This document shows positions 3,807-32,210 of a stretch of DNA of 64,000 bases, one piece after another; position 1 is the stretch's first letter; the number at the start of each line of letters is the position of its first letter. Where the stretch lies: the NCBI RefSeq assembly GCF_008692195.1, contig NZ_RXOM01000044.1, forward strand, positions 177,823 through 241,822, in the 5' to 3' direction. This stretch comes from Salegentibacter sp. R32 (GTDB lineage Bacteria; Bacteroidota; Bacteroidia; Flavobacteriales; Flavobacteriaceae). Position numbers and translations under genes: made by a program. A model generated the notes under the pieces. The model saw only the letters and a list, made by a program, of their open reading frames with translations. It was not told where the DNA came from and ran no database searches.

Positions 3807-4718
3807 ATGAAACAGTATTATTTCCACATTCTATTTTTCTTTTTTCTTAGCGTGGCTTTTGGGCAGCAAGACTCGCAGTATACACAATATATGTATAACA
3901 CAATGAGTATAAATCCCGGATATGCCGGAACTCGGGAAGTATTGAGTGTGATTGGGGCTTATCGTGCGCAATGGATTGGTTTAGAAGGAGCTCCTAGAAC
4001 TTTAAATTTTGCAGCACACACTCCGCTAGGCGGAAGAAGTCTTGCCAATCTAGGATTAGATGTAACTAGTGATAACATTGGCGCGTCCACCCAAAAATCC
4101 ATTGCAGCCAACTTCTCTTATATTCTTACATTAGACCGAGGGGAAGATACAAGATTGGCCTTTGGCGTGAAAGGCGGGGTGGATAATTTGGATATTGATG
4201 TAAACAAACTTACGTTGGCCGATATTAACGACCCGCGTCTTTCTAATTTAAGTGAATTTTCACCTGTGGTAGGTCTAGGAAGTTATTTATATACCGATAA
4301 CTGGTATTTAGGAATATCAACTCCCAACTTATTACAGACTGAACGTTATGATGATGCCACTGTGGCAACTTATACCAATAAAGCTCACATTTATGCAATA
4401 GGAGGATACGTTTGGGAAGTAAATAGGGATTTTAAATTTAAGCCTGCATTTTTGGTGAAGTCAGTTACCGGAGCTCCACTTGCGGTAGATTTATCGGCTA
4501 ATTTTTATTTTAATAATAAATTTACGGTGGGCGCTTCCTATAGATTAGGTTCCGCAGTAAGTGCGCTTGCAGCCTTTCAGGTTTCAGAACAAATTATGAT
4601 TGGCTATGCTTATGATTACGAAACTACTGAGTTAAGTAATTACAACAGCGGCTCCCATGAAATTATACTAAGGTTTGAATTATGGGCCAATTATCGCAAT
4701 AGGTTTAGATGTTTTTAG
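3807..4718 (+). CDS. PorP/SprF family T9SS outer-membrane protein
   Basis: 303 aa, the typical family length. Signal peptide (about residues 1-19, ending AFGQ), then the family opening QDSQYTQYMYNTMSINPGYAG, GAYRAQWIGLEGAP and alternating beta strands of an outer-membrane barrel. In Flavobacterium johnsoniae SprF is needed for secretion and attachment of the type B cargo SprB, and SprF paralogs sit beside other CHU_C proteins. Position as last gene of the four-gene operon supports the same role for the upstream type B protein. The operon has no obvious terminator directly after it; 132 AT-rich bases follow. Confidence 0.9.
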   Translation: MKQYYFHILFFFFLSVAFGQQDSQYTQYMYNTMSINPGYAGTREVLSVIGAYRAQWIGLEGAPRTLNFAAHTPLGGRSLANLGLDVTSDNIGASTQKSIAANFSYILTLDRGEDTRLAFGVKGGVDNLDIDVNKLTLADINDPRLSNLSEFSPVVGLGSYLYTDNWYLGISTPNLLQTERYDDATVATYTNKAHIYAIGGYVWEVNRDFKFKPAFLVKSVTGAPLAVDLSANFYFNNKFTVGASYRLGSAVSALAAFQVSEQIMIGYAYDYETTELSNYNSGSHEIILRFELWANYRNRFRCF

Positions 4719-4850
4719 TAAAAATAAAGAAGTTAAACATTTGTTAAAACATAACTTTATTGGATATTATCTGATTTTTAAATCTAAATTTAATGATAAC
4801 TTACAGCTGTAAATATTCAAATATTTTATTAATTCTTTAAAAATTTAATT

Positions 4851-9014: not shown

Positions 9015-11084
9015 CTATTCTTTCATAAAAATCGGTTTTTTGGTAAGGTGCCATTTTAAGCGTAAGCCTATTTCTGTAAACCTAAATCCGGCAGCGGTGG
9101 CAGAAGCAATATTACTATGCGTTCCGTAGAAGTTGACTAAAAACCTGTTGGAGAATTTATAACCCAGTTTTCCTTGAAAACGATAGGTAGATTGCTTTTT
9201 ATCATCTTCAATAAATTGAAATCCTGTTGCTGCGGTTACCCCATAAAATAAAGAAGCTTCTTTGGCAACTTCTTCATCTTTTAGAAAATCTACAAAAATT
9301 TCAGTAGCATTAAACCTCGATGGACTAAAATAAACCGTAGGCACTTGATCTTTAAAACTGATATATTGATAGTTGATTCCTCCTTTTAATACCGGTTGTG
9401 TCAAAAAATTATAATACACCGAAGTAAACAACAAATTACGTTGGTTACTATCCGATTGAAACGTATAAAAATACTGCGTAAACCAGCCTATTTTTTTATT
9501 GGTGCTTAAATTGTAATTCAAGTACAAATGATTGGCAGCGATATTCCTATCTAATAAATCGGCATTAAAATTCTGGATATCCCGTTGGTAACCAATTTCT
9601 AAATCTTGCAGTTTATAAGGTTTGATATTGAAAAAGGCTTTCCCCAATACCGCTGTATAATCGTTAGAAAAAGAACTTGCTGAAGAAATTCCGCCCAAAG
9701 CCGTAAATTTAGCTTTCGGGTGAAACTGGTAGCTCACCCCAAAATTAGCATTGTGGGAGGAAGCTTCGTTATTAGTAACTGTATTTTCTGTTTTTCGATA
9801 GGTGTAATCACCTAACAGCGTAAATTTTAAACTGATGGGAAAACTTACTTGGGTTTGTGTAGCGCAGGCTTGGTTATCGCCATTATCAAACGTGTAACTA
9901 ATTCTTTCATCTACATAAGGCGAATAAGACCTATTGAGTTTACCTAAGAAATTAGTCGCATCTTTCTGGTTTTCAAAAATAGTCAACGTCTGTTTCACCG
10001 CTTTATAAGCTTTCTCTGGTTTACCATCAGCAAAATAAGCATTGGCACTTCCTAAGTTTCCGTCAAAGGAAAGAGAATCTTTCGTCAGAATGCTTTCATA
10101 ATCTTCAATACTTTCCTTAAAATCACTTCGGTACATTCCTAAAGTTGCTCGTAACGATAAAATCCAATTTTCATTTCCGTAAGTAGAAATGTAATCTTCA
10201 ATGGTATTCTCAGCTTCTGTGAATTTTCTGTTCCAGATCAAGCTTTGCACAAAACGCTCCTGTGACTTTTTCAGAAGTGTACTGTCTTCTATTTTTTCAG
10301 CTTTTTGTAAAGATTCCTTTGCTAATACTAGCGCACGTTTATCTTTTTTGACAATATGAGCTGCCAAAGCCATTCCGTTCAATGCGGTAATGCTATCTTT
10401 AGGGCTAGTCGCCGTGAGTAAATACACTTCATTGGCTTTTTCGCTTTCTTCCATAATTAAATAAACATTGGCTTGATTGAGCAAGGTTTCTTTATCTAAA
10501 GGAAAATCTTCTAAATTTTCTAACAACAACTGAATGGAGGCTTCATAATCCTGCAACTGCATTTTGGTATAGGCAAAACCCAAGCGAATGTATTTTTTGG
10601 AAGTCATCGCATTGGGATTGTTGGGCGAAACTTCTAAAGCTTTATTCACATAGGTCAAAGCATTTTCATATTCTTTTAGATTAGAAAAAGTGTTGGCATA
10701 GCCCAATAGCGCTGCAAAATTTTCAGGATTGTTTTTCACCAGTTGTGCGTAATAGGTTTTTGCTTCAGCATAGTTTTTATTCCAAAGTAACGATTCTGCG
10801 TAATTTAACTGAACTTCTAAATCGTTCGGATACTCTTCTAATAAAGAAGAAAATAATCCAGTAGCTTTTTCTGGATCACTATTTAGCCCTACGGCCCTTC
10901 CGTAACAGATTCTCGCGGTTTTGTTATTGGGATATTGCTGAAGTACATCAGCGAAAAAAGTTTCAGCTTCTGCAAACTTCCCATTTTCAAGAAACTGAAA
11001 TCCTTCTTTCATCTCTTGAGCTAAGGCTGAAAAACCAATTAAATTGAATATAAAACCAACTAATAATAGTCTGAAAATTTTCAT
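9015..11084 (-). CDS. TPR-beta-barrel protein, putative outer-membrane polysaccharide exporter
   Basis: 689 aa. Signal peptide (1-22, ALAQ). Residues about 24-395 are tandem tetratricopeptide repeats (recognisable W/LNY-G-A-Y/F and P-N/D spacing, for example EYENALTYVNKALEVSPNNP). About 395-689 is a beta-barrel-like region with regularly spaced aromatic strands ending in LRLKWHLTKKPIF. A periplasmic TPR arm joined to an outer-membrane barrel is the architecture of the synthase-dependent polysaccharide exporters PgaA and PelB; this protein is shorter. It is divergent from STAS, flippase and glycosyltransferase genes, which supports an export role (inference). A YaiO-like barrel is the main alternative. 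Confidence 0.65.
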   Translation of the reverse strand: MKIFRLLLVGFIFNLIGFSALAQEMKEGFQFLENGKFAEAETFFADVLQQYPNNKTARICYGRAVGLNSDPEKATGLFSSLLEEYPNDLEVQLNYAESLLWNKNYAEAKTYYAQLVKNNPENFAALLGYANTFSNLKEYENALTYVNKALEVSPNNPNAMTSKKYIRLGFAYTKMQLQDYEASIQLLLENLEDFPLDKETLLNQANVYLIMEESEKANEVYLLTATSPKDSITALNGMALAAHIVKKDKRALVLAKESLQKAEKIEDSTLLKKSQERFVQSLIWNRKFTEAENTIEDYISTYGNENWILSLRATLGMYRSDFKESIEDYESILTKDSLSFDGNLGSANAYFADGKPEKAYKAVKQTLTIFENQKDATNFLGKLNRSYSPYVDERISYTFDNGDNQACATQTQVSFPISLKFTLLGDYTYRKTENTVTNNEASSHNANFGVSYQFHPKAKFTALGGISSASSFSNDYTAVLGKAFFNIKPYKLQDLEIGYQRDIQNFNADLLDRNIAANHLYLNYNLSTNKKIGWFTQYFYTFQSDSNQRNLLFTSVYYNFLTQPVLKGGINYQYISFKDQVPTVYFSPSRFNATEIFVDFLKDEEVAKEASLFYGVTAATGFQFIEDDKKQSTYRFQGKLGYKFSNRFLVNFYGTHSNIASATAAGFRFTEIGLRLKWHLTKKPIFMKE

Positions 11085-11173
11085 TGTAGTTTATTTCTTA
11101 TTGAACAGGTACAAGTTACATATAGCAGCGTTATTATTCATCTACACAACAGAACCATTCATCGAAACTTCAA

Positions 11174-11203
11174 TTTGCTTCATTGAATTAAGGCAGATAT
11201 TTG
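11174..11203 (+). promoter_or_regulatory. Bacteroidota-type promoter for the STAS-flippase-GT operon
   Basis: TTTG at 11174-11177, 18-nt spacer, GATATTTG at 11196-11203 (one mismatch to TAnnTTTG). The predicted start near 11209 gives a leader of about 26 nt before the ATG at 11235. Confidence 0.5.
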
Positions 11204-11234
11204 AATCAAATTATAACACATAAAACTTAAAAAT

Positions 11235-11543
11235 ATGGCTTTTTTTATCACACAAAACAATGAGTTAGTTAAACTTTCAGGTAATCTCACGGTAAGTACC
11301 GCACAATTAGTAAGAACACATATTGAAGCTCTTCTTAGGAATATTGACTTTTTCACTATCGACCTTAGTGAGATAGATAGTATTGACACGGGAAGCGTGT
11401 TAGAACTTAAGAATTTAGTGGAAACAGCTTTTAAAGAGGGAAAGAAAATTGTCTTTATGGGGAAACAGAACGAGAAAATTATAGGAGCATTTAAACGATG
11501 CAACATCAATTTGTTTAGCGGTAAATTTACGATTGCCGCATAG
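11235..11543 (+). CDS. STAS-domain protein (anti-sigma-antagonist type)
   Basis: 102 aa, a stand-alone STAS domain. Expected landmarks are present: N-terminal beta strand, FTIDLSEIDSIDTGSVLEL around residues 40-58, then the helix and the GAFKRCNINLFSG C-terminal segment. In SpoIIAA-type proteins the residue after the conserved Asp is the serine phosphorylated by an anti-sigma kinase; here it is Thr52 (D51-T52-G53-S54), which could still accept phosphate. No RsbW-like kinase or sigma factor is encoded nearby. Its place as first gene of an operon with a flippase and a glycosyltransferase suggests post-translational control of polysaccharide assembly, not a sigma switch (inference). It starts 22 bp before the next gene. 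Confidence 0.8.
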   Translation: MAFFITQNNELVKLSGNLTVSTAQLVRTHIEALLRNIDFFTIDLSEIDSIDTGSVLELKNLVETAFKEGKKIVFMGKQNEKIIGAFKRCNINLFSGKFTIAA

Positions 11544-11565
11544 CCAAAACTAAAAAAGTAAAATT

Positions 11566-12822
11566 ATGATAGCTTCTTCTACCCTTCCTTACAAATTAAC
11601 TTTAAAGCCGGAACAGGTTTTTATGTTGAGTGCCCTTGTGGTTAACGGTGGTAATTATTTGTACAACTTAGTTTTGGGAAGAATTTTAGGTCCCGAAAAA
11701 TTTGCAGATGCCGCTATTTTAATCACCTTATTAATGGTGCTTTCATTTGTAGCAATGACTTTTCAGCTTTCGGTGACTAAGTTTACGGCAGGTTTGGAAG
11801 GAGCAAAACAATTCAGATTTTTTAGTTTTATAAAGAAAGTCGCTATCATCTGCGGGATTGGTTTAGGAGCAGGCATTGCCTTTTTTGCCGGTGATTTACA
11901 GCAAATTTTCCAGACCAATTCCAAAGAAATGTTTTACTTTTTTGCAGCCGGTGTTCCTGTGTACTTTTTAATGAGTACCAATCGAGGCTATTTTCAAGGA
12001 AATAAAAGTTTTTATAAGCTTTCGTTCACCTATCAAACTGAAATGATAAGCAGATTGGTTATCACTTTAATTTTGGTATTAAGTTTAAAAAGCAATACGT
12101 CTTTATTAATTGCAGCAGGAATATTTATTTCTTTCATTTTCGGGCTTTTTCCCTATCAGAAAAGTAAAACAAAGCAGGTTTCTGAAACTAAGTTAGAAAT
12201 GAGTAGTTTAAAATCTATCTTCGGTTTTATTCTTATTACGGCATTTTATGAGCTTACGCAAATCATCATCAACAATAGTGATATTTTATTGGTGAAGCAT
12301 TATTTTGAAGCTTATGAAGCCGGACTTTACGCTTCGTTGGCCTTAATAGGAAGAATGGTATATTTTGTGGCGTGGATGTTTGTGATGATTTTATTGCCTA
12401 CCGTGGTAAAATTGAAAAAAGAAGGTAAAGATCCACTTCCTGTATTTTTTAAATATTTAAGCCTTATTAGTTTGTTGGCAGGAAGCATTGTTGTGGTTAC
12501 TTTCTTCTTTCCTGAAACTATTATCCAGTTAATGTTTGGGGAAGCCTATATCACGATGGCACCACTTTTATGGAAATACGCTTTGGCCACTTCCATCTTT
12601 GCAGTATCCAATGTGTTTGTGTATTACTTTTTATCCTTAGAAAAATATTTACCGGTTATTATTTCAGGTGTTTTCGGAGTAAGTCAAGTAGCTTTCATTG
12701 TATTCTTTCATCAAAGTCTAGCACAAGTAGTGGAAGTGCAAATAGCAATTATAAGTTTTCTATTGGTTATACAGTTAGGTTTGTTCTTTTATCAACAGAA
12801 GAAGAAAATTCACCGAAAGTAA
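11566..12822 (+). CDS. MOP-superfamily polysaccharide flippase (Wzx/PelG-like)
   Basis: 418 aa with about 12 hydrophobic segments spread over the whole length, typical of the oligosaccharide flippase family. The N-terminus carries the family-like NYLYNLVLGRILGPEKFADAAIL motif just after the first membrane helix. It lies between the STAS gene (22-bp gap) and a GT4 gene (80-bp gap to the chosen start). In the Pel system a MOP-type membrane protein (PelG) pairs with a GT4 enzyme (PelF), and the same pair stands here. Whether it flips a lipid-linked unit or exports a growing chain cannot be told from sequence. Confidence 0.75.
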   Translation: MIASSTLPYKLTLKPEQVFMLSALVVNGGNYLYNLVLGRILGPEKFADAAILITLLMVLSFVAMTFQLSVTKFTAGLEGAKQFRFFSFIKKVAIICGIGLGAGIAFFAGDLQQIFQTNSKEMFYFFAAGVPVYFLMSTNRGYFQGNKSFYKLSFTYQTEMISRLVITLILVLSLKSNTSLLIAAGIFISFIFGLFPYQKSKTKQVSETKLEMSSLKSIFGFILITAFYELTQIIINNSDILLVKHYFEAYEAGLYASLALIGRMVYFVAWMFVMILLPTVVKLKKEGKDPLPVFFKYLSLISLLAGSIVVVTFFFPETIIQLMFGEAYITMAPLLWKYALATSIFAVSNVFVYYFLSLEKYLPVIISGVFGVSQVAFIVFFHQSLAQVVEVQIAIISFLLVIQLGLFFYQQKKKIHRK

Positions 12823-12902
12823 ACTTTCATTTATCGAAGAAATCAAATATGAAAGCCTTAAAACAAGACTTTTACCTAAAGAAACAAAATAAAACTATTA
12901 TT

Positions 12903-14099
12903 ATGAAATTAGCAATCGTAACAGCATTCCCGCCCAGCAAAGTAACCTTAAACGAATATGGTTACCACTTAGTAAAAAACTTTGCACAAAAAGAAGATAT
13001 AGATGAATTGGTTTTAATTACAGATTATACGGAAGAGCCAAAGCAATTGGATTTTGACACACAAGGATGTAGAATCACCGTAAAAGATTGCTGGAAGTTC
13101 AACAGTTACAAAAACGTATTCAGTATCTACAAAACCATTCAGGAGGAGAAGCCAGACGCTATCTTATTTAACTTGCAGTTTATGAAATTTGGTGATAAAA
13201 AAATTGCTGCAGCTTTAGGACTTTTATTACCTATGATTTTTAAACTAAAAGGAGTCGCTACCATTGTCTTGCTACATAATATTTTAGAGCAAGTAGATTT
13301 AGGTAGCGCCGGGTTTACTTCTAACAAGTTAATGCAAAAGGTATATAACTTTATAGGAAGTACGCTTACCAAAGTTTTATTAAAAGCTGATGTGGTAGCG
13401 GTAACGATTAGTAAATATGTAGAAATACTTCAAAGTAAATATAAGGCAGAAAACGTGGTGCTTATTCCGCACGGTTCTTTTGAAACCCCGCCACAACCAA
13501 GTTTCGATTTACCAAAAGGACCTAAAAAAGTAATGACCTTCGGTAAATTTGGAACTTACAAAAAAGTAGAAATCCTAATCGAGGCGGTAGAGCAAATTAG
13601 AAAACGCACTAATGAAGCCATAGAAATTGTTATCGCCGGAACCGATAGCCCCAACACACCGGGTTATTTAGCCGGAGTTCAAGAAAAATATAAGCACGTA
13701 CCGAACATTACCTTTACCGGTTATGTGGAAGAAAGTGATGTTCCTGTTATTTTTGGTGAAAGTGCAGTAGTGGTATTCCCTTATACTTCAACTACCGGAA
13801 GTTCAGGAGTTTTACATCAAGCAGGAAGTTATGGAAAAGCCGTGGTATTACCAGATTTAGGAGATTTAGGTATTTTGGTTAGAGAAGAGGGTTACCGTGG
13901 TCAATTTTTCAACCCAACCAGCGTAGAATCTCTTGCTGATGCGGTAGAAAAAATTATCTGTAATGATGCGTATAGAGTTAAATTGGCCAAAGCGAATTAT
14001 CAAGCCGCGTGTTCTTTACCGATGGAAACTATTACCGATATGTATTTACAGCAATTTGAAGCTTTACAAAATGCTAAAATACCAAGTGTATTAGTATGA
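12903..14099 (+). CDS. GT4-like glycosyltransferase
   Basis: 398 aa from the ATG at 12903, chosen because MKLAIVTAFPPS is the normal first beta strand of a GT-B enzyme. The frame is open further upstream (in-frame ATG at 12849 and beyond) but that part overlaps the flippase gene out of frame and looks non-coding. GT-B features: N-terminal Rossmann half, hinge near PHGSFE, C-terminal half beginning MTFGKFGTYKKVEILIEA. Odd point: the usual E-x7-E sugar-nucleotide motif is replaced by TGSSGVLHQAGSYGK, without either glutamate. It overlaps the convergent glycoside hydrolase-like gene by 9 bp. Confidence 0.75.
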   Translation: MKLAIVTAFPPSKVTLNEYGYHLVKNFAQKEDIDELVLITDYTEEPKQLDFDTQGCRITVKDCWKFNSYKNVFSIYKTIQEEKPDAILFNLQFMKFGDKKIAAALGLLLPMIFKLKGVATIVLLHNILEQVDLGSAGFTSNKLMQKVYNFIGSTLTKVLLKADVVAVTISKYVEILQSKYKAENVVLIPHGSFETPPQPSFDLPKGPKKVMTFGKFGTYKKVEILIEAVEQIRKRTNEAIEIVIAGTDSPNTPGYLAGVQEKYKHVPNITFTGYVEESDVPVIFGESAVVVFPYTSTTGSSGVLHQAGSYGKAVVLPDLGDLGILVREEGYRGQFFNPTSVESLADAVEKIICNDAYRVKLAKANYQAACSLPMETITDMYLQQFEALQNAKIPSVLV

Positions 14100-15641
14100 C
14101 ATATAATTGGATGAAAGTTTAAGATTACCCCGCGAATTTATAAATCCAAAGTGCTTTTGGCGGGCTTTGCGCCAAGGCAATCTCCCTACCACATCGGTAG
14201 GGATTTTTTTAAAATCGTAAAGCGTCCAAGACATAAATGCAAGCTGTTCTTTTTCTAGAAAAGCTTGCATTTTTTTATGGTATTCCGCTTGTGCTTCTTC
14301 ACTATTGCTCCACAAGTTCCAAAGTCCATCGTATGAAGTGGCACCAAATTCTTGCAAGACCAAAGGTTTATTTACTTTCTCATTCAATGTTGAATAATCT
14401 TCTTCTAAATCAGATAAATCTTTGTAATAATGAAAAGAAACCAAATCTAGCTTTTCACTTAATAGATGTGCTTGGTCTGGAGTTGACCAGCCCACCGTGA
14501 GTAAATGTTGTTGATCTACTTCTTTTATTTGCGTAATAAGATGCGACAACCAAGCCAAAACATTTTCTTTTCCGCGACTTTCAAAATCTAAATCGGGTTC
14601 ATTTTTTAAATCCCAAGCTAAAATTGCCGGGTGGTTTTTTACCGAACTAACAATTGCTTCAGCGTGGCGGTGTGTTAAGGTCCAATCTAACACCGAATAA
14701 TCCCCATAAAAATCAAAAAGCGTGACCACTACTTTTAATTTACTTTCTTCAGCGATATCTAACACTTTCTTCAGCTTTTTTAGCTTTTCCGGTTTTACTT
14801 CAGCTTTGCCAAAATCTTCATATTGAATAAAAATCCGAACGCTATTCAAACCTTGATTTTTAATAAGCTGAAAATCTTTCTGAATTACCAAAGTATCAAA
14901 ATCGTCTCCAAACATATCCCAAGGAGAATCCTGCGGATAATAGTTAATGCCCTTTACAATAAACGGCTTTCCGTTTTTATAAAGTTTCTTTCCCTTAATT
15001 TTAATTTCTGAAGAAGTTTGTACAGAATCCTTTTTAATTTTGGAAGGAATTTTTACCAAATGTCGAATGCGCCAAAAGCCATCTTCCAAAAGCATCATCA
15101 CTTGATAAGCGGAAGTATCTTCTTGAATAGTGACCAGTTTTTCATTTTGATACACCTTTTGGTATTCCACCACTTCTTCATCGGTAAGAACCACAAGTTG
15201 ACCATCGGCACTGTAAAACTCAACTTTAGGCGAATGATGAAGCGTGGTAGCTTCAATAGAAATGTTTTGCGCTTCATTTAATTTAATAATTTCATGTAGA
15301 TTTACCCGAGCGTTATCAGTGTAAAAATCAGCAATTCCGTGGGTGTTATTGGTTTTGTAAGAGTTGTTCCGTACATACCAAGATTTTAAATAATCGTCTT
15401 CTATTTCTTGAAGAGTAGGTTTTTCCATCGGGCGACCTTCTACAGCAGAAATATCCCAGTTTATTTTGGGTGTATAAATTTTACTGTTGATGACCTCAGC
15501 GTGCAACATTGTAGAACGGTCAGCTCCTGTATTTAGGTAAGCCAAAACCGAACTAATTCCCCAAATAATTAAGCCATTTACCGCTACAAAAGTGACGATT
15601 AATAAAGCCCGATATAAATTTTTATTTAATTTTTTACTCAT
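14091..15641 (-). CDS. Membrane-anchored TIM-barrel glycoside hydrolase-like protein with NTF2-like domain
   Basis: 516 aa. One N-terminal membrane anchor (about 11-34) with the rest on the periplasmic side. Residues about 75-200 look like an NTF2/SnoaL-type domain (DDYLKSWYV, FYTDNARV, GFWRIRHLVK). From 216 a cellulase-type (beta/alpha)8 barrel begins with LYKNGKPFIVKGINYYP. Putative acid/base is Glu348 in WDLKNEPD and nucleophile Glu431 in LVLQEFGA, both expected for clan GH-A (GH5/GH2-like). It may trim or process the polymer made by this locus, as PelA and similar hydrolases do (inference). Start and stop overlap the upstream gene by 8 bp, indicating translational coupling. Confidence 0.75.
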   Translation of the reverse strand: MSKKLNKNLYRALLIVTFVAVNGLIIWGISSVLAYLNTGADRSTMLHAEVINSKIYTPKINWDISAVEGRPMEKPTLQEIEDDYLKSWYVRNNSYKTNNTHGIADFYTDNARVNLHEIIKLNEAQNISIEATTLHHSPKVEFYSADGQLVVLTDEEVVEYQKVYQNEKLVTIQEDTSAYQVMMLLEDGFWRIRHLVKIPSKIKKDSVQTSSEIKIKGKKLYKNGKPFIVKGINYYPQDSPWDMFGDDFDTLVIQKDFQLIKNQGLNSVRIFIQYEDFGKAEVKPEKLKKLKKVLDIAEESKLKVVVTLFDFYGDYSVLDWTLTHRHAEAIVSSVKNHPAILAWDLKNEPDLDFESRGKENVLAWLSHLITQIKEVDQQHLLTVGWSTPDQAHLLSEKLDLVSFHYYKDLSDLEEDYSTLNEKVNKPLVLQEFGATSYDGLWNLWSNSEEAQAEYHKKMQAFLEKEQLAFMSWTLYDFKKIPTDVVGRLPWRKARQKHFGFINSRGNLKLSSNYMSY

Positions 15642-16860
15642 ATTTTCTTTCTCTAATCTCTTTCGTGATACCTAAAGCTTTTAGCTGAAATGAATAGCTT
15701 TTTTCAGGATAAAACTCTTTTGCCAATTGAAACTCCACCATTCCTTTAGAAGAAGTTTTTTGTTTGGTTTCTATCAATTCCCCGTCGTGATAAATCAACA
15801 ATTTTACTTGCGCGCCATCCGGAATTAATTGGCCCATAAAACTTAACAACGGGCCTACTGTTATTTTTCTATTTTCTGCTGAAAATTTCACCGGAAAATC
15901 TTCCAAAATCGATTCATAGGTTAAATTGATTGAATTGCTTTCTGCCACTCCGGGAATGTAGGCTTTTATCTTCCAAGTTTGTGGTGCATCGGGATGAAGC
16001 ATTTTCGCTTTGGCAATTCCGTTAATCGTGGAAGCGTAGGTTTTTAATAGGTGATTTTCTTCCGTGGTGATTAAAAACTCAACCATCGTACCATCAGCAA
16101 TAATATTTTTGAATTCATCTTTAATAATGGAGGTTGAAAATTCCGTGAGTTGATTTCCATCGGCATATTCATGATTTCTATCAAATGAAATTTGAAAGTC
16201 GGTTGCGTTGGAAGGATATATATTAGAGGTAAATTCTTTTGAGGAGGTTCCGTTTACTTCAGAGGAAATTTGCATAATTCCCGATTTGGGTTCACTCATC
16301 ATATTTCGCCAAGCCATCAGGTTTTCAGTAAAAACTTTAAATTCACTAATTGTATTTTTATACTGCTTAAATATCAAAACTTCTGTACTATCGGGCAAAG
16401 GATTGTCGTAAACATCGGTTGGTGAAACTACCAACATGGAAAAATCTTCATAACCCGCTACAATACTTCGGGGTCCCAAATAGGTTTCTAACTGAGTTTT
16501 AGTAGAAGTAGCCGGAACAATTTTTAGAATTCCGCTTAATAGTTGCTCACTTTCACTTAACAAAACCCAAGTTAATGCTCCTGTTTTCCTTGAAAAAAGT
16601 TCAGGAAGTTGAAAAGTAAACCGATTATTTTCTTTTTTGCTTTCCGTTAATAACGTGCTTCCAAACGAATGATGAAGGTAAAGTTTGAGATTTTCAACAC
16701 CGGTAATCTTAAAATTTAGTTGAATAGCTTCCCCTGCTTGAAAAGTGGATTTTTCAGTCAATACTTCTGCCTGAGCTTCTTCTGATTTTTGGATATACGC
16801 AAACGAACAGATGCTTCCTGCTAAACCTAAAAGTAAGATGAATAACTGAAATTTCTTCAT
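15634..16860 (-). CDS. Secreted beta-rich protein of unknown function
   Basis: 408 aa, signal peptide at 1-22 (LLLGLAGSICSFAY). The rest appears to be consecutive beta-sandwich (Ig/macroglobulin-like) domains: segments such as TFQAGEAIQLNFKITG, ISFDRNHEYADGN and VEFQLAKEFYPEKSYSFQLKA have the look of MG-type domains. No catalytic motif is seen. The ATG overlaps the stop of the 1029-aa membrane protein gene by one base (TAATG) and its end overlaps the next gene by 8 bp, so it is the middle gene of a tightly coupled three-gene operon. Probably a periplasmic partner of the other two proteins (inference). Confidence 0.6.
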   Translation of the reverse strand: MKKFQLFILLLGLAGSICSFAYIQKSEEAQAEVLTEKSTFQAGEAIQLNFKITGVENLKLYLHHSFGSTLLTESKKENNRFTFQLPELFSRKTGALTWVLLSESEQLLSGILKIVPATSTKTQLETYLGPRSIVAGYEDFSMLVVSPTDVYDNPLPDSTEVLIFKQYKNTISEFKVFTENLMAWRNMMSEPKSGIMQISSEVNGTSSKEFTSNIYPSNATDFQISFDRNHEYADGNQLTEFSTSIIKDEFKNIIADGTMVEFLITTEENHLLKTYASTINGIAKAKMLHPDAPQTWKIKAYIPGVAESNSINLTYESILEDFPVKFSAENRKITVGPLLSFMGQLIPDGAQVKLLIYHDGELIETKQKTSSKGMVEFQLAKEFYPEKSYSFQLKALGITKEIRERKYE

Positions 16861-19800
16861 TAAAGCGGATTTCCAATATAACTATTTAATTCGACCTTTA
16901 TATAAGAAAATTCATCCGCTTTTATAGCTTGCAAATTTTCTTGATGATGACTTTCTTTTCGGTTAGGAATCACTTTTTTCGCAATAGATTCATTGGGCAA
17001 ACCATTCACATAACAATTTTCTAATGAAGAATTTAAAACTTCAACATCTATTAAATTTTCCCATTCATAAGCAAAGTACTGTTTTCGCTGAATTCTTACG
17101 CCCTCCCGCATAAATTGACTATCGACCCAAATGAGGTTTTTATCTTGATCATAATAGGAAACCAAAAGTTGAGGAATGGTCACCTCTTGTATTCCGTAGT
17201 TAAACAACGTGCCTTCCATACTATTTTCATTCATTTCTAACGCTGAAAGCGAAACTTGTTTGTATAAATCTGAAGTAGCCACATTTCCTGCCGATTGCAA
17301 ATTGAATTTAGTAGGAATATCATCTAATGCTACCGGAGTGAATTCATCGGGATTAAAAGTTTCAGGGATGGACGTTGCTGTGTCCATCCAAGCAATACCT
17401 TCAAAATCTATTCGGTAAGAAGTAACTTCCTTGGGCATCAGCTTATGCTTCATCATATATTTTGCGTTGTAATTAGCCAATTCTTCATTTTCATCATTAT
17501 ATAAAGTTGCTTTCAAGACGACATCGGCAGGAACGTTGTCTACATTTTGCAATTCGCCAATAATGGAATATTGACTGTTATTACATACTAATTTCGCCGA
17601 AAGAATTTCCAGCACCGGTTGTTTCAATACATCTTCATGATGGGTTTGCTGCGTAGTTACCCGACGACGCCCATGATTATAAAACTGCGTGGTATTATCT
17701 GAAAATAATTGATCCGGCGGAATGTCTAAATCAAAACCACTCGGTTCCAAATACCATTTTCCTTGTTTTTTTACCAGTTCGTGATAATAGGTTTTTTCAA
17801 TTTTTTCTAACGGAGTTACCCAGGTGGTTTTAGCGATGGCTTTTGCATGGTTCTTTGTTTGATTTCTTAATTCAACTTCGATGGCATTTAATTTTGCATA
17901 AGAACTCAAAATACCATCGGTCACCGAAACTTCCAACATATACTGGGCTATACTTATTTCTGAATCCGGATCTAAATAGGAATGTGCACGTTCAAACTCT
18001 TTAAAATCTAAGGCATCGTAATAGGCTTCGACAACATTTTTCCCGGTAAGTTGACTGGTATTTTTTACATAAAATAAATACACTCCATAAAACACAACAC
18101 CCAACATGAGAACTGCCCAGAGGTGATTCAGTTTAAAAAGTTTTCTGCTGAAATGATTGTAATTGTTTTCAAACTTCAGAAAATCGGGACGTTCAACTTT
18201 ATTAATTTTTAGGGTTTGGTACCAAATGACCTGCAAATTGATAATGAACGCCAGAATAACAGTAAGCATCGGGATGATGCCCCACATTAATTTGAGGAAA
18301 ACGGGAACGTCTTCTTTGGGTAAAATTTTAGAGAGTGGCGGTACATTTAATTTTTCCCAGACCATGATTCCATTTTCCAATTGTTGTAAACGCTGCCATC
18401 CGCAGAAATAGAGCAAGGGATCGTAAAACTTATCGTTAGAAAAAATGTATTTCAAATTATATTTTTCGGGAACAGTTAAAAATTGCTGTAAAGAGCCAAT
18501 TCCTTCCACTCCCCTAAATTTTGAATTTTCCAAACGCTCTACCGCTCGGGTGGTCAATTCTGGTAATCTTCTTGCGGAATGATAGTTCCCATCTACCGTT
18601 AAGGCACTGGTTTGTGCCGAAAGCCAAGCCATTTGATCTCCAAAGCCCAAGGTTAAAAAACGCCAATGGTCGTGCTGATCTTGATTAAGAAAATTAACGA
18701 TGGGCAACATTTTTATTTTCTGCGGTTGCATGGGACGGAAATATCCGATGGTGATGGTGAAAACCGTCATTAGCAAAAACATTCCTACTAAAAAAGCGCC
18801 CAATACGCGATGATAAATAGCTCCAAATTTCTGCTGCGTATAATTCCGAAGGTCGCCTTCCGCAAAGCGATAAGCAAATTCACCAAAAATAGGTAAGGAC
18901 ATAATGGAAGCCCAAAGTGTAAATCTATCTAAGGTGAGAATATTAAATGCTGTATCACCTAACATCATCCTCGGAATAGGCGTGGTGCCTCCGGTTCCCA
19001 AAATAGTTAATAAGGTAATGGAAAGCCCAAAAAACAAATAGCGTTTGGCATAATACCGATAAAAAATATAGGGCAATAGAAATAGTAAAATTCCCCATGG
19101 AATTAAAAAAAACACCAATCCCGATGAAGTGACTTCTAAAAAATTATCCCGACTTCCATGCGGAATGGGAACTTGGGTAATAGGGTTTTTCTTAGAGTTG
19201 ATCCAATAGGGAAGAATACAAAAAATGATTATGAATAGTGAACTTCCGCCAAAAAGGACAATTCTTTTAAATAATTTGAAAAAGGAGGTAAGGAATAATC
19301 GAAACCTAATTTTCTTAAAAGAACCCACTTGTTCTTTGGAATAATCCATAATGACCATCCCGATCAATGGAAAGATAAAAAATACCATTCCGAAAATGGG
19401 GGTTACGTGATGGGAAGTAACCGTTACTGCAATGAGTGATAAAGCTCTCCATAAATATTTATGCCGTCCGGTTTTAATCCATAGGTAAATTTCCGGCAAC
19501 GAATGCATTAAAATGGATATTCCTATAATGCTGGGTAACTGTCCAAAAATGTGCAAGGTTTCTACAAAGGTGGAAGAAAATACGGCCAATAAAGCTGCAT
19601 ATCCTGCTGCTTTTCTGCTTGCGGTCATAAGCAAGGAAAACCTATAAACTCCAGTTATAAATAAAATGACCGCAATGATTGCCACAGTAAACATCCCGAA
19701 TTTGAGTCCGCCGAGTAAACTTAACAACCCAATTGCTTGATGAACCAATGGGGGATAGCCCATCACGGTAAAACCGGTGTACCATTTATAGTTCCAAGGT

Positions 19801-19949
19801 TCAAACCAGCTATTGGCATAATGCTCTGCAAAAAATAGATGAATTAACGCATCGTAAGTATTTTCTAAGGTAAAAAATACAGCAGAACCGTGAAAAACCA
19901 AGCCAATGATTAAAGCTACAATTAGGTATTTATTGGTTTTTTCTTTCAA
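16860..19949 (-). CDS. Large GT-C-like membrane protein (6-PTPS-related family)
   Basis: 1029 aa. About 12-13 membrane helices in the first 600 residues. The first helix is followed by LENTYDALIHLFFAEHYA, with Asp33 where GT-C enzymes keep a catalytic acid in their first external loop; YTGFTVMGYPPLVH follows. This is the layout of bacterial membrane proteins labelled 6-pyruvoyl-tetrahydropterin-synthase-related; the name is historical and no pterin activity is implied. After a last helix (about 615-635) come an NTF2-like domain (VVEAYYDALDFKEFERAHSY) and a beta-rich C-terminus, both probably periplasmic. The start is a TTG at 19949; no closer ATG precedes the first helix. First gene of a three-gene operon. 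Probably a polyprenyl-sugar-dependent glycosyltransferase (inference). Confidence 0.65.
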   Translation of the reverse strand: MKEKTNKYLIVALIIGLVFHGSAVFFTLENTYDALIHLFFAEHYANSWFEPWNYKWYTGFTVMGYPPLVHQAIGLLSLLGGLKFGMFTVAIIAVILFITGVYRFSLLMTASRKAAGYAALLAVFSSTFVETLHIFGQLPSIIGISILMHSLPEIYLWIKTGRHKYLWRALSLIAVTVTSHHVTPIFGMVFFIFPLIGMVIMDYSKEQVGSFKKIRFRLFLTSFFKLFKRIVLFGGSSLFIIIFCILPYWINSKKNPITQVPIPHGSRDNFLEVTSSGLVFFLIPWGILLFLLPYIFYRYYAKRYLFFGLSITLLTILGTGGTTPIPRMMLGDTAFNILTLDRFTLWASIMSLPIFGEFAYRFAEGDLRNYTQQKFGAIYHRVLGAFLVGMFLLMTVFTITIGYFRPMQPQKIKMLPIVNFLNQDQHDHWRFLTLGFGDQMAWLSAQTSALTVDGNYHSARRLPELTTRAVERLENSKFRGVEGIGSLQQFLTVPEKYNLKYIFSNDKFYDPLLYFCGWQRLQQLENGIMVWEKLNVPPLSKILPKEDVPVFLKLMWGIIPMLTVILAFIINLQVIWYQTLKINKVERPDFLKFENNYNHFSRKLFKLNHLWAVLMLGVVFYGVYLFYVKNTSQLTGKNVVEAYYDALDFKEFERAHSYLDPDSEISIAQYMLEVSVTDGILSSYAKLNAIEVELRNQTKNHAKAIAKTTWVTPLEKIEKTYYHELVKKQGKWYLEPSGFDLDIPPDQLFSDNTTQFYNHGRRRVTTQQTHHEDVLKQPVLEILSAKLVCNNSQYSIIGELQNVDNVPADVVLKATLYNDENEELANYNAKYMMKHKLMPKEVTSYRIDFEGIAWMDTATSIPETFNPDEFTPVALDDIPTKFNLQSAGNVATSDLYKQVSLSALEMNENSMEGTLFNYGIQEVTIPQLLVSYYDQDKNLIWVDSQFMREGVRIQRKQYFAYEWENLIDVEVLNSSLENCYVNGLPNESIAKKVIPNRKESHHQENLQAIKADEFSYIKVELNSYIGNPL

Positions 19950-19976
19950 TAGAAATTGTTCTTATAGTTAACAAGG

Positions 19977-20006
19977 TAAAGATAGCTTCAAGTAAAAAGT
20001 TACAAA
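19977..20006 (-). promoter_or_regulatory. Bacteroidota-type promoter for the 1029-aa protein operon
   Basis: On the minus strand TTTG (20006-20003), 18-nt spacer, TATCTTTA (19984-19977, one mismatch to TAnnTTTG). Predicted start near 19970, giving a leader of about 20 nt before the TTG start at 19949. Confidence 0.45.
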
Positions 20007-20092
20007 AATTTATTGGTCTATAGAAAATTACCGTTCGTCTAAACAAAAAACCTCACTAGTCAAAATATAAAATTTTCATTTAAGCTTTGAAC

Positions 20093-20100
20093 TACTTTTG
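20093..20100 (+). promoter_or_regulatory. Candidate -7 box for the receiver-GT2 gene
   Basis: TACTTTTG matches TAnnTTTG. No good -33 TTG is seen at 17-21 nt upstream, so this is weak. If real, transcription would start near 20106, which excludes the TTG at 20098 and ATG at 20101 as start codons and favours the ATG at 20146. Confidence 0.35.
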
Positions 20101-20145
20101 ATGAAAGAAAATCAAAACAAACAACTATTCAAAAAAATTACTCGT

Positions 20146-21336
20146 ATGAAAATTCTAGCTATAGACGACCAGCAGTTGGTATTATTACCACTTAAAAAGA
20201 AGCTTACCGAGTTAGGGTATGAAGTTGAAACGTTAACTGAATCTAACAAAGCTAAATTTGTATATGAAACTTTTTTACCGGACTTGGTAATTGTAGATAT
20301 TAATATGCCAAATGTTTCCGGTTTAGATATAGTGAAATTTATCAAACAAGAAAAAGGAGATGCAACCCCTATTATGGTTTTATCTGGTAATACAGAAGAT
20401 GACTTGATTGTTGAAGCTTTTGAAATGGGTATTGACGATTATATGAAAAAGCCGCTAAGCTTAGAAGAGGTTTGTGCGAGAGTGAAAAGACTTATTGGGT
20501 TTGCTACTAATCATCAACCCGCCAAAACCCAATCTAAAACTATTATAGAAAAAAGATGTGTGGGAGTGGTAATCCCTTGCTACAATGAAGAAGAGCGTTT
20601 ACTTAGCAAAGAGTTTTTAAATTTTGTGGAAGAACATTCCGGTTATCATTTATGCTTTGTGAATGATGGAAGTACAGATAGAACTTTAGAAGTTTTAAAA
20701 GAGCTTAAAAAAGGACGTGAAGAATATATAAGTGTTTATGATTGTTTTAAAAATGGTGGTAAAGCCGAAGCGGTGAGACAAGGAATGCTTTACTTAGAAA
20801 GGTTTCGATACTTAGATTACATCGGTTTTTTAGATGCCGACCTTTCTACCAACTTAAATGATTTTGATGCTTTGGTAAACACGATAGAATCTTCTTCATT
20901 TAAAATTGTAAGCGGTTCTAGAATTAGCAGAATGGGTGCGAACATCACTAAAGAATCTGCCAGAAAAATTATTAGTTTATCTATTAATTACATTATAAGA
21001 AAAATCTTGGGTATGGATTTTAAAGATACCCAATGTGGTGCAAAAATAATGAATAGAGAAATAATTAATGTTGCTTTTCAAAAGAAGTTTGTGACCAAAT
21101 GGCTTTTTGATGTGGAGATTTTTATGCGAATGAAAAAGCATTTTGGTACGAGAAAAGCTCAAGCATATATTTGCGAACAACCTTTAAATAGATGGGTACA
21201 TGCTGATGGTTCTAAGTTATCGATGAAGGATTCTATGAAGATTGTTTTTCAATTAGCTGAAATAGCTTGGGTGTACAGAAGGAAGAAAAGCAAAAACGTG
21301 GAGGTATTTTCGCCCACATTTCAAATGGGTAAGTAA
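20146..21336 (+). CDS. Response-regulator receiver fused to a GT2 glycosyltransferase
   Basis: 396 aa from the ATG at 20146 (an in-frame ATG at 20101 would add 15 residues; 20146 gives the standard MKILAIDD receiver start). Receiver domain 1-118 with a full phosphorylation site: acidic pair D7/D8, phospho-acceptor D51 in IVDINMP, S80 and K102 (KKP). Residues 140-370 are a GT2 domain of the dolichol-phosphate-mannose-synthase/ALG5 type: VVIPCYNEEE, FVNDGSTDRT and the metal-binding DAD at 230-232. No membrane helix follows, so the enzyme is cytosolic; it probably charges a polyprenyl phosphate with a sugar for a GT-C enzyme such as its divergent neighbour (inference). No histidine kinase is in the window. 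A terminator follows. Confidence 0.88.
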   Translation: MKILAIDDQQLVLLPLKKKLTELGYEVETLTESNKAKFVYETFLPDLVIVDINMPNVSGLDIVKFIKQEKGDATPIMVLSGNTEDDLIVEAFEMGIDDYMKKPLSLEEVCARVKRLIGFATNHQPAKTQSKTIIEKRCVGVVIPCYNEEERLLSKEFLNFVEEHSGYHLCFVNDGSTDRTLEVLKELKKGREEYISVYDCFKNGGKAEAVRQGMLYLERFRYLDYIGFLDADLSTNLNDFDALVNTIESSSFKIVSGSRISRMGANITKESARKIISLSINYIIRKILGMDFKDTQCGAKIMNREIINVAFQKKFVTKWLFDVEIFMRMKKHFGTRKAQAYICEQPLNRWVHADGSKLSMKDSMKIVFQLAEIAWVYRRKKSKNVEVFSPTFQMGK

Positions 21337-21479: not shown

Positions 21480-24400
21480 TTATCTGAAAATTACCTTTGT
21501 AGTTCCATAATTTGTTTTGGAAGAAGTAATATTACAGAAAAGCATACCAGGAGCTACGTTAAGATTAAATCTTAAATCATTTCTACCTTCGCTTAATTGT
21601 ATATTTTTTGAATAAACTATCTTCCCTGTAATATCGTATAATTTGAGTTCTGCAGAAGTTTTATCTTCACTGTACAACATACAGTTTAAATCTCCTTCAG
21701 AAGGATTAGGGTAAACCATAAACTCATTTTTCATATTTATTAATAAATCTTGATAACCTTCAGGAGCAGTTTTAGTGAATTTTACATTTTCAATGGTTAA
21801 GTCTAAGTCATTCGTTTCGGCTTCTACGGGTAAAAATGTAAAAGTTAACATAGTTAAATCATCTAGAGTAATTGATTTATTAGTGCCGGAAGAAGCGAAA
21901 AATTCAAAAGGTACATAATAGGTTTGTTCTTCTTCTCTTACGTTGATGTTAGCTCTGTATTGTTTTTTCCATTCTTCAATAGAAGATTTTAAAAGTCCTA
22001 GCTCTAATAAACCACTTCCTTTAGCTGTAAAAGAAAGATATTTATATTCCGTATAATCTGATGGTAAATTACCTGGTAATAAAGATTTATATAAAGTTAG
22101 ATAGTCGTATTCGCTATGAGCTTTAATATGAACATTTCTGTGAACAGGCATTTCATCTTCTTCATAAATTCTTTCAAAATTGTTAGAAACACGATATTCT
22201 TCAATAGTTGTATAAGTTGCATCGTAATCTAAGCCCCAGTTTCCGTCTGCGTGATAAAACACATCTTGAATTTCGCCATTTACGTTTATTCTTCCATCGT
22301 ACTCATAACCGTCTTTAATATCGATTTTTACAGTTTGGACGTCATCAGATTTAAATGGATTGTATCGTAATGCGAAACCATTTGTTTCACTGTATACTTC
22401 ATCCATCATAATTTCAACACTTTGGTCTTTTTTGTTACTTCTTAATTTTAAAATTAAATCTGTACCATCTCTATCTACCTTAGCAACGTAAGTTTTCGGT
22501 AACTTCTGTGTTTCAGTTTGAATAACAGAAGTATAATTCTTTAAGTTGTTGATAATGTCTTTTACTAGGTTTTTAGTGCTTTCAGGTTTTGTAGCCCAAA
22601 CTTGAAAGTTAAAAACTTCATTGGAAGGAATATATCCATTTACATACCAGTTGGATTGTAGGGTGTAATTCTCTTCATTTGAATTTTCTCCTACTGCAAA
22701 AGAAATGGCATATTCGGTCACACCGTTTCTCTGTTTTATAGCTTGCATGATAAAATTGTAACCTTCAATTTGAACTGGTTGAATGTTTAGAATTTCAGCA
22801 CCTTTCAATCTATCACAAGAAGCTTTGGTATGATTGTAAACTCTATCAATAGTTTTAATACCTAATACTACTCCTTTTGTTTTTCCTTCTACAGAAAAAT
22901 CTACACTTAATACCTCTTCAGCTACTGTATAATCTAAAATATCTGTTGGCGAGGTGATATAAGATGTGTTACCGGGAACTAGTTCTGCAGGAAACATATC
23001 TAAAAGAGTTTGCCCATTTTGCCCTCTGCCAGCCAAGTTAGATTTTAGCTCTCGTTTATTGAATTTTGCTGCATTTTCCTTTTTAAAGTTAGTAGCGATG
23101 CTTCTCTTTTTGCGTTGAACGTATTGCTTAGACACCACGTCTCCTAAACTTTCGCTTTCCAGTCCGCCATCGTTTCCTGTGTTTACGTCTTCAGATTCTA
23201 TTGTTACAGGAATCATAGTGGTATTTACACAGCCATTAAGGTCGGTGGTAGTAACAAAAACTTCATAATAGCCTGCCTGAGTAAAATCAAAAATTACCGT
23301 GCTTTGGTTAGGGTATAAATTGCTTCCTACTCCAGAAAGTTCCCAAGAGTAATTAGTAAACTCACTGCTGTTGGTAAGTGTAAATTCTTTGGTTACTGTT
23401 CCTGAACCACTGGTTAAAGTAGTCTGTGAAACAATTGCTGGGGTAGTTGAAAACACTTCAACTTGAATTACTTCAGAATCTGAACCATAAGTATTGGTAG
23501 TGGTTAGCTCTACTGTATAAATACCAGCTGAACTATAAGTTTTTGAAGGATTCATATCTGTACTTGTGGTTCCGTCTCCAAAATCCCAAAGATAGCTTAA
23601 AGGAGCTTCAGGTTGAGTTGCTGCTCCTGTATTAGAAGTGTTGGTGAAAGTAAATTCGTTATCAACTAAACATTGTTCTGCTGAGTTAACACTAAATTCT
23701 GCTATTGGTGGAACTCCAGTAACAGGGGCGCATCCTGTAAGTGAAGGTTGAAAAACAGCATAGTGCATTTCGCCACCACTATGAACCAACGATTTACCAA
23801 TTACTTGTCCTTCAATATTAGATTGATTAACTGTTTTTACAATATCTGCGAAAGGAGCATAAACAGTACCTTCCACAGTAGAATTTCCTTGAATGTTTAA
23901 GGTAGTAGTATTATAGAAGTTGTATAAAATGTATGGACAGTTTTGGAAACCTACGCCTGCTTGATTCCACACATTCCAGTTAAACGTCCCGGGAGCATCT
24001 ACATTAATTACTAATATTTTTGAAGCATTTGGTTGTTGGTTATAGGTAAATACTTGAACATTGTTCATGTCGGTGCCGCTAACATTCAAGTAGTTAATCC
24101 CGTTCTGTAAATTTATTTTTACCTGATTTGGAAGATTTGTGTTAGGAATGGATTGCCCATTAGGATTTGTTAATTGTGCATTTCCTGTGCATTGAGCAAT
24201 ACTAGAAGAAATAGTTCTCATTTCTTGAAAAGCACTCGAAAAATCTATAAGGTTATCTTCAAAAACCGGATTGTTATTTACACCAACGTTTAATTGATTA
24301 GAGTTGGCTTGCAACATAATCTTTGGGGAGGAATTATAGTTTGAGCCGGGTGTAATTCTAATAGGTGAAGCCGCATTGTTTTGATCATAATACCAAACAT

Positions 24401-24752
24401 AAGAGCCTTGCCCATCACCAATTTTTGCATAAGTATTTTGGTTAACTTGTAGAGCATTACCGGATTGATAGTTTACTTTCCCTCCAACCAAGAGACCAAT
24501 TTTATTGCCTCCTACTTCAAAATCTCCTGTGTGATTCACAGCAACTTGATAATTCCCTTGAAGGGTTAAATCATTACCGCAAGCGACCGGACCTTCAGAT
24601 TCGTTTGTTGAAAGGGTCATGTTGTTTTCGAGAAAAACATTAAATCCTTTTGCCGGGTTGGTCGGTGATTGTGCATAAGATTCATTTGAAATGAATAAAG
24701 CAAATGAAACCACGAATATTGCAATTGCAACCTCTTTAATATTGAATGACAT
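21480..24752 (-). CDS. Secreted choice-of-anchor A/PKD protein with T9SS type A sorting domain
   Basis: 1090 aa. Signal peptide (1-27, ESYAQ). About 30-340 is a choice-of-anchor A beta-helix-like domain (GFNVFLENNMTL, LTLQGNYQVAV, NSTVEGTVYAPFADI). Two PKD domains follow (about 350-435, with YLWDFGDGTTST, and about 437-520). The middle (about 520-1005) is not recognised and contains a basic stretch KKRSIATNFKKEN and a possible carbohydrate-binding-like beta segment near 900-1005. The last 80 residues are a T9SS type A target domain (VYPNPSEGDLN, LYDITGKIVYSK, GTTKVIF). It is likely displayed or released at the surface; it may interact with the polysaccharide of the adjoining locus (inference). 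Confidence 0.88.
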   Translation of the reverse strand: MSFNIKEVAIAIFVVSFALFISNESYAQSPTNPAKGFNVFLENNMTLSTNESEGPVACGNDLTLQGNYQVAVNHTGDFEVGGNKIGLLVGGKVNYQSGNALQVNQNTYAKIGDGQGSYVWYYDQNNAASPIRITPGSNYNSSPKIMLQANSNQLNVGVNNNPVFEDNLIDFSSAFQEMRTISSSIAQCTGNAQLTNPNGQSIPNTNLPNQVKINLQNGINYLNVSGTDMNNVQVFTYNQQPNASKILVINVDAPGTFNWNVWNQAGVGFQNCPYILYNFYNTTTLNIQGNSTVEGTVYAPFADIVKTVNQSNIEGQVIGKSLVHSGGEMHYAVFQPSLTGCAPVTGVPPIAEFSVNSAEQCLVDNEFTFTNTSNTGAATQPEAPLSYLWDFGDGTTSTDMNPSKTYSSAGIYTVELTTTNTYGSDSEVIQVEVFSTTPAIVSQTTLTSGSGTVTKEFTLTNSSEFTNYSWELSGVGSNLYPNQSTVIFDFTQAGYYEVFVTTTDLNGCVNTTMIPVTIESEDVNTGNDGGLESESLGDVVSKQYVQRKKRSIATNFKKENAAKFNKRELKSNLAGRGQNGQTLLDMFPAELVPGNTSYITSPTDILDYTVAEEVLSVDFSVEGKTKGVVLGIKTIDRVYNHTKASCDRLKGAEILNIQPVQIEGYNFIMQAIKQRNGVTEYAISFAVGENSNEENYTLQSNWYVNGYIPSNEVFNFQVWATKPESTKNLVKDIINNLKNYTSVIQTETQKLPKTYVAKVDRDGTDLILKLRSNKKDQSVEIMMDEVYSETNGFALRYNPFKSDDVQTVKIDIKDGYEYDGRINVNGEIQDVFYHADGNWGLDYDATYTTIEEYRVSNNFERIYEEDEMPVHRNVHIKAHSEYDYLTLYKSLLPGNLPSDYTEYKYLSFTAKGSGLLELGLLKSSIEEWKKQYRANINVREEEQTYYVPFEFFASSGTNKSITLDDLTMLTFTFLPVEAETNDLDLTIENVKFTKTAPEGYQDLLINMKNEFMVYPNPSEGDLNCMLYSEDKTSAELKLYDITGKIVYSKNIQLSEGRNDLRFNLNVAPGMLFCNITSSKTNYGTTKVIFR

Positions 24753-25652: not shown

Positions 25653-25684
25653 TAAAAGGTTACACTCAATTCTGTAACCTTTTA
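25653..25684. terminator. Shared bidirectional terminator overlapping the dehydratase stop codon
   Basis: Perfect 12-bp inverted repeat (arms 25653-25664 and 25673-25684, 8-nt loop). The right arm and loop encode the last codons (KRLQN then stop) of the minus-strand dehydratase gene, so one hairpin serves both convergent genes. Confidence 0.8.
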
Positions 25685-27751: not shown

Positions 27752-27756
27752 CGCGT

Positions 27757-28521: not shown

Positions 28522-28530
28522 GTAAGATAA

Positions 28531-32205: not shown

Positions 32206-32210
32206 TTTTT

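Follow-up and report, generated by a model that had tools for sequence, protein, structure and literature searches.

A conserved polysaccharide secretion locus in Flavobacteriaceae, probably controlled by a nitric oxide-type phosphorelay

Results

Gene content of the locus

We analyzed a 64,000-nucleotide stretch of the genome of Salegentibacter sp. R32 (contig NZ_RXOM01000044.1, positions 177,823 to 241,822; hereafter the window), in which eight genes, here called A to H, form one real and conserved polysaccharide secretion locus. An earlier note, made from the letters of this DNA, had taken these eight open reading frames (ORFs) for a system resembling the Pel exopolysaccharide machinery, and all eight were confirmed in the window. 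The note missed a linked nitric oxide (NO)-type sensor relay, a repeat shared by two promoters of the locus, and a version of the locus in Deinococcus. We consider it probable that the locus is a polysaccharide exporter under the control of this NO-type phosphorelay.

Gene A (9015..11084, minus strand) encodes an outer-membrane polysaccharide exporter of 689 residues with a Pfam TPR match. Its predicted model, with a predicted local distance difference test (pLDDT) score of 91.6, comprises a signal helix, a TPR-type arm of 21 helices, and a 16-strand beta barrel. The best structural matches were PelB, BcsC, and PgaA-type secretin, which supports the TPR arm and barrel that the note had guessed at as those of an exporter of this kind.

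Pfam also backed the note's identities for five further proteins. Gene B (11235..11543, plus strand) encodes a stand-alone STAS protein, supported by a 30-row alignment; gene C (11566..12822, plus strand) encodes a MOP-type flippase (Polysacc_synt_3, E 1.9e-15) and is a conserved neighbor; and gene D (12903..14099, plus strand), which has homologs on Deinococcus plasmids, encodes a GT4-like glycosyltransferase that starts at 12903 and not at the listed ORF start of 12570. Gene E (14091..15641, minus strand) encodes a membrane-anchored glycoside hydrolase with a GH2_C-type TIM barrel, one N-terminal hydrophobic segment, and two residues, Glu348 and Glu431, that are invariant in 32 aligned rows. 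In gene H (20146..21336, plus strand; listed ORF from 20098), a receiver domain is fused to an ArnC/DPMS-like GT2. The start is probably 20146, where a Met is conserved in a 37-row alignment (codons checked), and the receiver is intact, with Asp67, Ser96, and Lys117 invariant in the same 37 rows.

Neither F nor G had a Pfam match above the cut-off. Gene F (15634..16860, minus strand), present in 86/87 loci scanned by tblastn, encodes a conserved, putatively beta-rich protein with a single hydrophobic segment near its N-terminus. The 1029-residue product of gene G (16860..19949, minus strand) is 95% identical to its Mesonia oceanica homolog. Its predicted model (pLDDT 66.6) gives, less surely than for A, the GT-C fold that the note had guessed, in a membrane glycosyltransferase with an NTF2-like domain and a beta-rich C-terminal part; the best folds were STT3, AglB, ArnT, and PglB. 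Profile searches of the PDB with G, C, and D yielded nothing useful (D at E ≤ 1e-10 only), and F gave one match (E 0.38). The best solved matches of the GT2 part of H were ArnC, sll0501, and DPMS, in agreement with the proposed pairing of a polyprenyl-type GT2 with a GT-C protein. Unlike ArnC-ArnT and related GT2/GT-C pairs, the GT2 described here carries a receiver, has no hydrophobic segment, and belongs to a locus for polysaccharide export.

A short GT2-like protein is encoded beside H in locus L075 (8165-8596), and related ORFs occur in 33/80 loci (115-167 residues in the rows printed). The one that was scanned covers the GT2 model only in its first half, and these proteins are possibly non-catalytic partners.

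Conservation and distribution

Searching with G gave 143 relatives; the 80 best of these, together with 7 further genomes, made up the 87 loci that were scanned by tblastn. Matches were found for A in 72 loci, C in 74, D in 78, E and F in 86 each, G in 87, and H in 84; a contig end truncates 7 of the 15 loci that had no match for A. Match coordinates showed the same gene order in most of the 87 loci. When 247 evenly sampled Bacteroidota genomes were searched, 8 had a match for G (E ≤ 1e-5), and exactly these 8 (hereafter the cluster genomes) had matches for D and A (both E ≤ 1e-60). The eight genes thus co-occur as a conserved locus, with the reservation that B is not universal. For the alignments, homologs with less than 85% coverage or with lengths far from the query were dropped; the rows aligned were 45 of 81 for G, 39 of 62 for A, 33 of 68 for C, 32 of 72 for D, 32 of 78 for E, 38 of 80 for F, and 37 of 66 for H.

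Within the family, G was present in 112/397 Flavobacteriaceae genomes and 80/237 genera, a count that takes in partial or broken copies (G437, G523, G323, and G512). Broken GT-C gene remnants interrupted by stops, in G323 (contig C598) and G512 (contig C93), are consistent with loss. Recent transfer was rejected as the chief explanation for this distribution in the family: a tree of G built from 43 rows, about half of the rows, kept most genera with at least two rows together, which points mainly to descent with loss. In this tree, Tenacibaculum is split, a Winogradskyella group takes in strain ALC-1, and the sole Flavobacterium row joins Lutibacter.

Comparison with Pel

The Pel system of Pseudomonas and Gram-positive bacteria (PelA-G; PMC7112168) resembles the locus in its PelB-kind TPR-barrel exporter and in the roles of its flippase, GT4, and anchored hydrolase. 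The kinship ends at the exporter fold, and the wider relationship claimed by the note was not supported. C and D match general flippase and GT4 models only, the searched libraries presumably including PelF and PelD models. The PelG family (PF16933) gave no match for C at E ≤ 0.01 and was above the cut-off in none of the 8 cluster genomes, with one weak match below it. The TIM barrel is the only domain seen in E when it is compared with the PelA-type deacetylase plus hydrolase, its first 200 residues having no assignment. Pfam found no GGDEF or GAF match among the eight proteins, and their other readings leave no PelD-like protein. Conversely, relative to Pel, the locus adds a GT-C protein, a receiver-GT2 fusion, and a STAS protein. 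Nor is there a membrane-embedded processive GT2 synthase of the cellulose or poly-N-acetylglucosamine type among the eight proteins, as the sole GT2, that of H, has no hydrophobic segment by hydropathy. Membership in Pel was therefore rejected.

STAS proteins and c-di-GMP

The STAS query matched only 21/87 loci because this gene evolves fast and is missing in some loci; among the 68 loci with both A and C, 12 have a gap of less than 230 bp between them. A Ser or Thr occupies the classical STAS phosphosite in 13/30 Flavobacteriaceae rows, including the Thr of the window, and a SpoIIE phosphatase was found in 2/8 cluster genomes, that of the window not among them. HATPase_c_2 matches occurred in 8/8 cluster genomes, all in frames of at least 336 residues as in ordinary kinases, except for a 135-residue frame in G158. 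A classical phospho-switch was thus rejected as the role of STAS in Flavobacteriaceae, where the protein probably works otherwise, perhaps as a scaffold or interaction switch. Of the phosphorylation switches in the earlier note, the receiver of H is supported in being intact, and STAS lacks backing. Loss of the receiver tied to gain of a second STAS was also considered and rejected: L045, L072, and L073 fit, while L101 has a receiver and two STAS proteins, and L074, L086, and L100 have no receiver and zero or one STAS protein.

The scarcity of c-di-GMP signaling stated by the note was supported in that GGDEF occurred in just 1/8 cluster genomes. This single protein (G000:C27:338-850, near the start of a 50.7-kb contig) is in the window's own genome, where c-di-GMP may have an input; the other seven have none.

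A linked NO-type sensor module

Reading of the flanks revealed kinase, Hpt, and LytTR genes near the locus. Hpt was present in 8/8 cluster genomes, in 6 of them at most 7 kb from A. In G103, G218, G158, and G182, the genes form a module in the order REC1, H-NOX, PAS kinase, FIST, kinase, Hpt, LytTR; G134 and G130 carry it without FIST, and G088 has a reduced form on a separate contig. As an unselected sample of linkage, both flanks were fetched for 20 single-contig genomes from the G-positive set of the family. In 18 of these, the module, whole or reduced, stood no more than 26 kb from G, on the flank that A usually occupies (A itself was unseen in the fetched stretches of G471 and G585). Its genes were found as follows among the 20: Hpt and at least one kinase in 18 each, H-NOX in 17, REC1 and LytTR in 16 each, and FIST in 15. 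No flank family other than the locus, the module, and adhesin-like genes similar to gene I (described below) exceeded 5/20 genomes. Overall, linkage held in 24/28 genomes (6/8 by distance to A and 18/20 by distance to G). Among the 80 loci, whose flanks are short, 16 showed at least one module gene. An ortholog of the LytTR regulator (at least 250 bits) was present in 8/8 cluster genomes compared with 5/239 others (Fisher p 4e-12), where the cut was set after the scores had been seen and related genomes are not independent, which makes p-values optimistic.

The sensor proteins carry the expected domains. Pfam found HNOB in 3/3 H-NOX proteins tested, the proximal His is present in 19/19 rows, and the Arg of YxSxR, which we take to be the H-NOX motif, is present in 18/19, with one Lys; NO binding is predicted. 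The FIST proteins of L087 and L107 both have FIST_N and FIST_C, and heme binding is putative. According to PMC8738867, NO is sensed by H-NOX and by the FIST protein NosP, and it is therefore the likely ligand here.

Several further arrangements were noted. In Mesonia oceanica (L022, 6918-8433), REC1-Hpt-LytTR lies directly beside H, and the same genes are on a separate contig in the window's genome, suggesting rearrangement between close relatives. L019 (genome G218) has a second LytTR regulator beside H (4100-4804), so that such regulators stand on both sides of the cluster there. In G084, a genome without the cluster, L117 (3430-16977) combines the module and the repeat described below with two STAS proteins, a flippase, Wzy_C, and a Wzz-like protein (Wzz below the cut-off), as if the control unit were attachable to another polysaccharide operon.

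A shared repeat at the A and G promoters

A direct repeat, TAGAYNAAY-N12-TAGAYNAAY, was discovered upstream of G and then tested separately at A promoters (78 G and 62 A promoters). With a spacing of 21 bp and at least 14/16 positions matched, it was found at 51/78 G promoters (0.3 in shuffles) and at 24/62 A promoters (0.18 in shuffles). At 25/78 G promoters, a 22-bp spacing also reached 14 positions, as if a third half-site were present. By comparison, the repeat was absent upstream of C (0/67), D (0/71), E (0/77), and F (0/79). In the single-contig genomes, it occurred on either strand near 10/16 REC1 starts and 9/14 starts of I-like genes; within the module, 1/18 Hpt genes had it. The two best matches in the 64 kb of the window are at the A and G promoters, one 52 bp upstream of A (11136..11165, minus strand, 15/16 positions) and one 92 bp upstream of G (20012..20041, minus strand, 16/16 positions). 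LytTR-type operators consist of direct repeats spaced by about 21 bp and placed upstream of the promoters they control. The repeat fits this pattern and is a candidate operator, with the LytTR regulator as its presumed binder.

A version of the locus in Deinococcus

Our survey covered Bacteroidota genomes and a plasmid collection. When the plasmids were searched by tblastn with G, four records were found, all from Deinococcus, which aligned over 83-92% of G at about 36% identity; D homologs in the four plasmids were 44-49% identical. In the three neighborhoods that were read (L104, L105, and L106), flavobacterial profiles matched G, C, D, GT2, and STAS, and A had no profile match. Only L104 matched E (strongly) and F. 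A free receiver adjoins G in L105 and L106; receivers lie farther away in L104. The GT2 and GT4 profiles fall on one ORF in L105 and L106, which directly supports a shared task for the two enzymes. MBOAT and AlgF genes, expected for an acetylated polysaccharide, lie near the L104 cluster. All three neighborhoods encode SpoIIE and HATPase_c_2 domains, and the classical site is Ser in 6/6 Deinococcus STAS proteins. These features resemble SpoIIAA/RsbV-type partner switching, in contrast to the Flavobacteriaceae, where the phosphosite is retained in under half of the STAS rows and 6/8 genomes have no SpoIIE. Second GT-C paralogs in L105 (21415-25209) and L106 (5060-7879) do not have the conserved YDALIH stretch and are perhaps inactive subunits.

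Neighboring genes

The product of gene I (21480-24752, minus strand) is a secreted adhesin in which Pfam finds pAdhesive_15, PKD, and a type IX secretion system sorting tail; it is a possible matrix partner. Loosely similar genes matched the I query in 36/87 loci, aligning with parts of I at mostly 22-31% identity; in L115, DUF4114 stands in place of pAdhesive_15. A second polysaccharide locus adjoins at 25666-45359. Its translations were read as CapD-, Wza-, and Wzc-like proteins, a flippase, and several glycosyltransferases. Its Wza- and Wzc-like ORFs at 27757-30897, labeled in the same way, are part of this next locus and not of A-H, and its flippase at 34831 is the second PF01943 match on the window's contig.

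Discussion

From the protein families, we propose the following order of reactions. The GT2 part of H would charge polyprenyl phosphate with a sugar, and D and the flippase C would assemble and translocate the chain or its units. G, with F and the hydrolase E on the outer face, would then transfer the lipid-linked sugar onto the polymer and trim it. The TPR-barrel protein A would let the polymer out, and the surface may retain it through adhesin I. In most carriers examined, the adjacent H-NOX/FIST heme-sensor module would drive histidine kinases and the Hpt protein, which would act on a LytTR regulator binding the 21-bp-period repeat at the A and G promoters. They would possibly act on the receiver of H too, gating donor supply besides transcription. 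A-H may therefore be a locus for a sticky surface polymer, with slime switched by gas sensing together with a phosphate relay. A fuller version, in which NO is wired in at two levels (LytTR transcription and phosphorylation of the H receiver) with no need for c-di-GMP, while SpoIIE and STAS run the same core machine in Deinococcus and control is exchangeable between phyla, is a tentative proposal that we lean slightly against.

Several observations weigh against a polysaccharide exporter under NO-type control. The locus is known from its genes, and the polymer is one that we infer. The model of G is weak, with residues 402-545 unreliable, and the best H match has no receiver in 12/84 loci. G344 and G585, 2 of the 20 single-contig genomes, have no module nearby. 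As for the repeat, the window holds four matches with at most 2 mismatches, which is weak by count (1.28 expected; 5/100 shuffles reach four). The two module pieces of the window's genome have no repeat at 14/16 or better upstream, and the same is true of I in the window. The other flanks hold 28 repeats at 15/16 or better in 0.85 Mb, compared with 2 in one shuffle, and 21 of these have no same-strand gene start assigned within 700 bp; repeats near REC1, moreover, point away from it. These last two results make any assignment of orientation provisional.

Two further observations weigh the same way and also suit a module that is a chance or hitch-hiking neighbor exerting no control over the locus. 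LytTR orthologs occur in 5 genomes without the cluster, and in the window's genome the module is unlinked, with REC1-Hpt-LytTR on contig C19 and H-NOX-HK-FIST-HK-LytTR on contig C5, so that control there would act in trans. Set against this are the linkage in 24/28 genomes, in several positions, and the concentration of the repeat at the starts of A, G, I-like, and module genes, and we regard mere hitch-hiking as unlikely. A slightly stronger contender, yet still an improbable one, is a Wzx/Wzy-type repeat-unit pathway in which C is Wzx, G is the polymerase or ligase, and A replaces Wza. C is indeed a MOP-type flippase, GT-C proteins use lipid-linked sugars, and G084 pairs the same module and two STAS proteins with Wzx/Wzy-type genes. 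However, Pfam found no match for Wzy_C, Wzz, an export lipoprotein, or an initiating phosphoglycosyltransferase among the eight proteins, and PelB/BcsC-like exporters are paired in known systems with synthase-dependent export.

Protein or lipid glycosylation, in which an ArnC/ArnT- or oligosaccharyltransferase-like GT2 and GT-C pair would decorate an envelope molecule and not a secreted polymer, would account for the best folds of G, the ArnC match of the GT2, and the adjoining adhesin gene. We find it quite unlikely, as a pathway that only decorates would have no use for the conserved exporter, flippase, GT4, and hydrolase, and MBOAT and AlgF in the Deinococcus cluster point to a polymer. Least credible is a diverged Pel operon whose c-di-GMP control was replaced, given the general models matched by C and D, the lack of PelG, and the lone TIM barrel of E.

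A polysaccharide exporter under an NO-type phosphorelay also has a known counterpart. According to PMC12369376 and PMC8738867, the HnoX-HahK-SypF-SypG-syp circuit of Vibrio fischeri likewise places an NO sensor, a kinase, an Hpt protein, and a response regulator over polysaccharide genes, the link between HnoX, kinase, Hpt, regulator, and these genes being described in PMC12369376. It differs in its gene set; in the locus described here, sensor, relay, and exporter are usually together, the regulator is of the LytTR type, and FIST is added. Searches of the open-access PubMed Central literature (STAS and exopolysaccharide, Pel in Bacteroidetes, H-NOX, and HsbA/HptB/NosP) found no paper whose title or opening abstract lines describe the locus, which does not show its absence from print; the conserved gene set is apparently undescribed.

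Marine Flavobacteriaceae are common colonizers of algal surfaces, and their matrix polysaccharides are poorly understood. Its form in Deinococcus suggests that a single polysaccharide machine can be fitted with different controls. Carriers seem to have few c-di-GMP enzymes, and through the receiver-glycosyltransferase fusion a phosphorelay would be able to reach an enzyme of biosynthesis. With the locus in more than a quarter of the family genomes surveyed, together with NO-type sensors and a shared candidate operator, these results offer a testable idea of how surface-polymer switching may work in this family.

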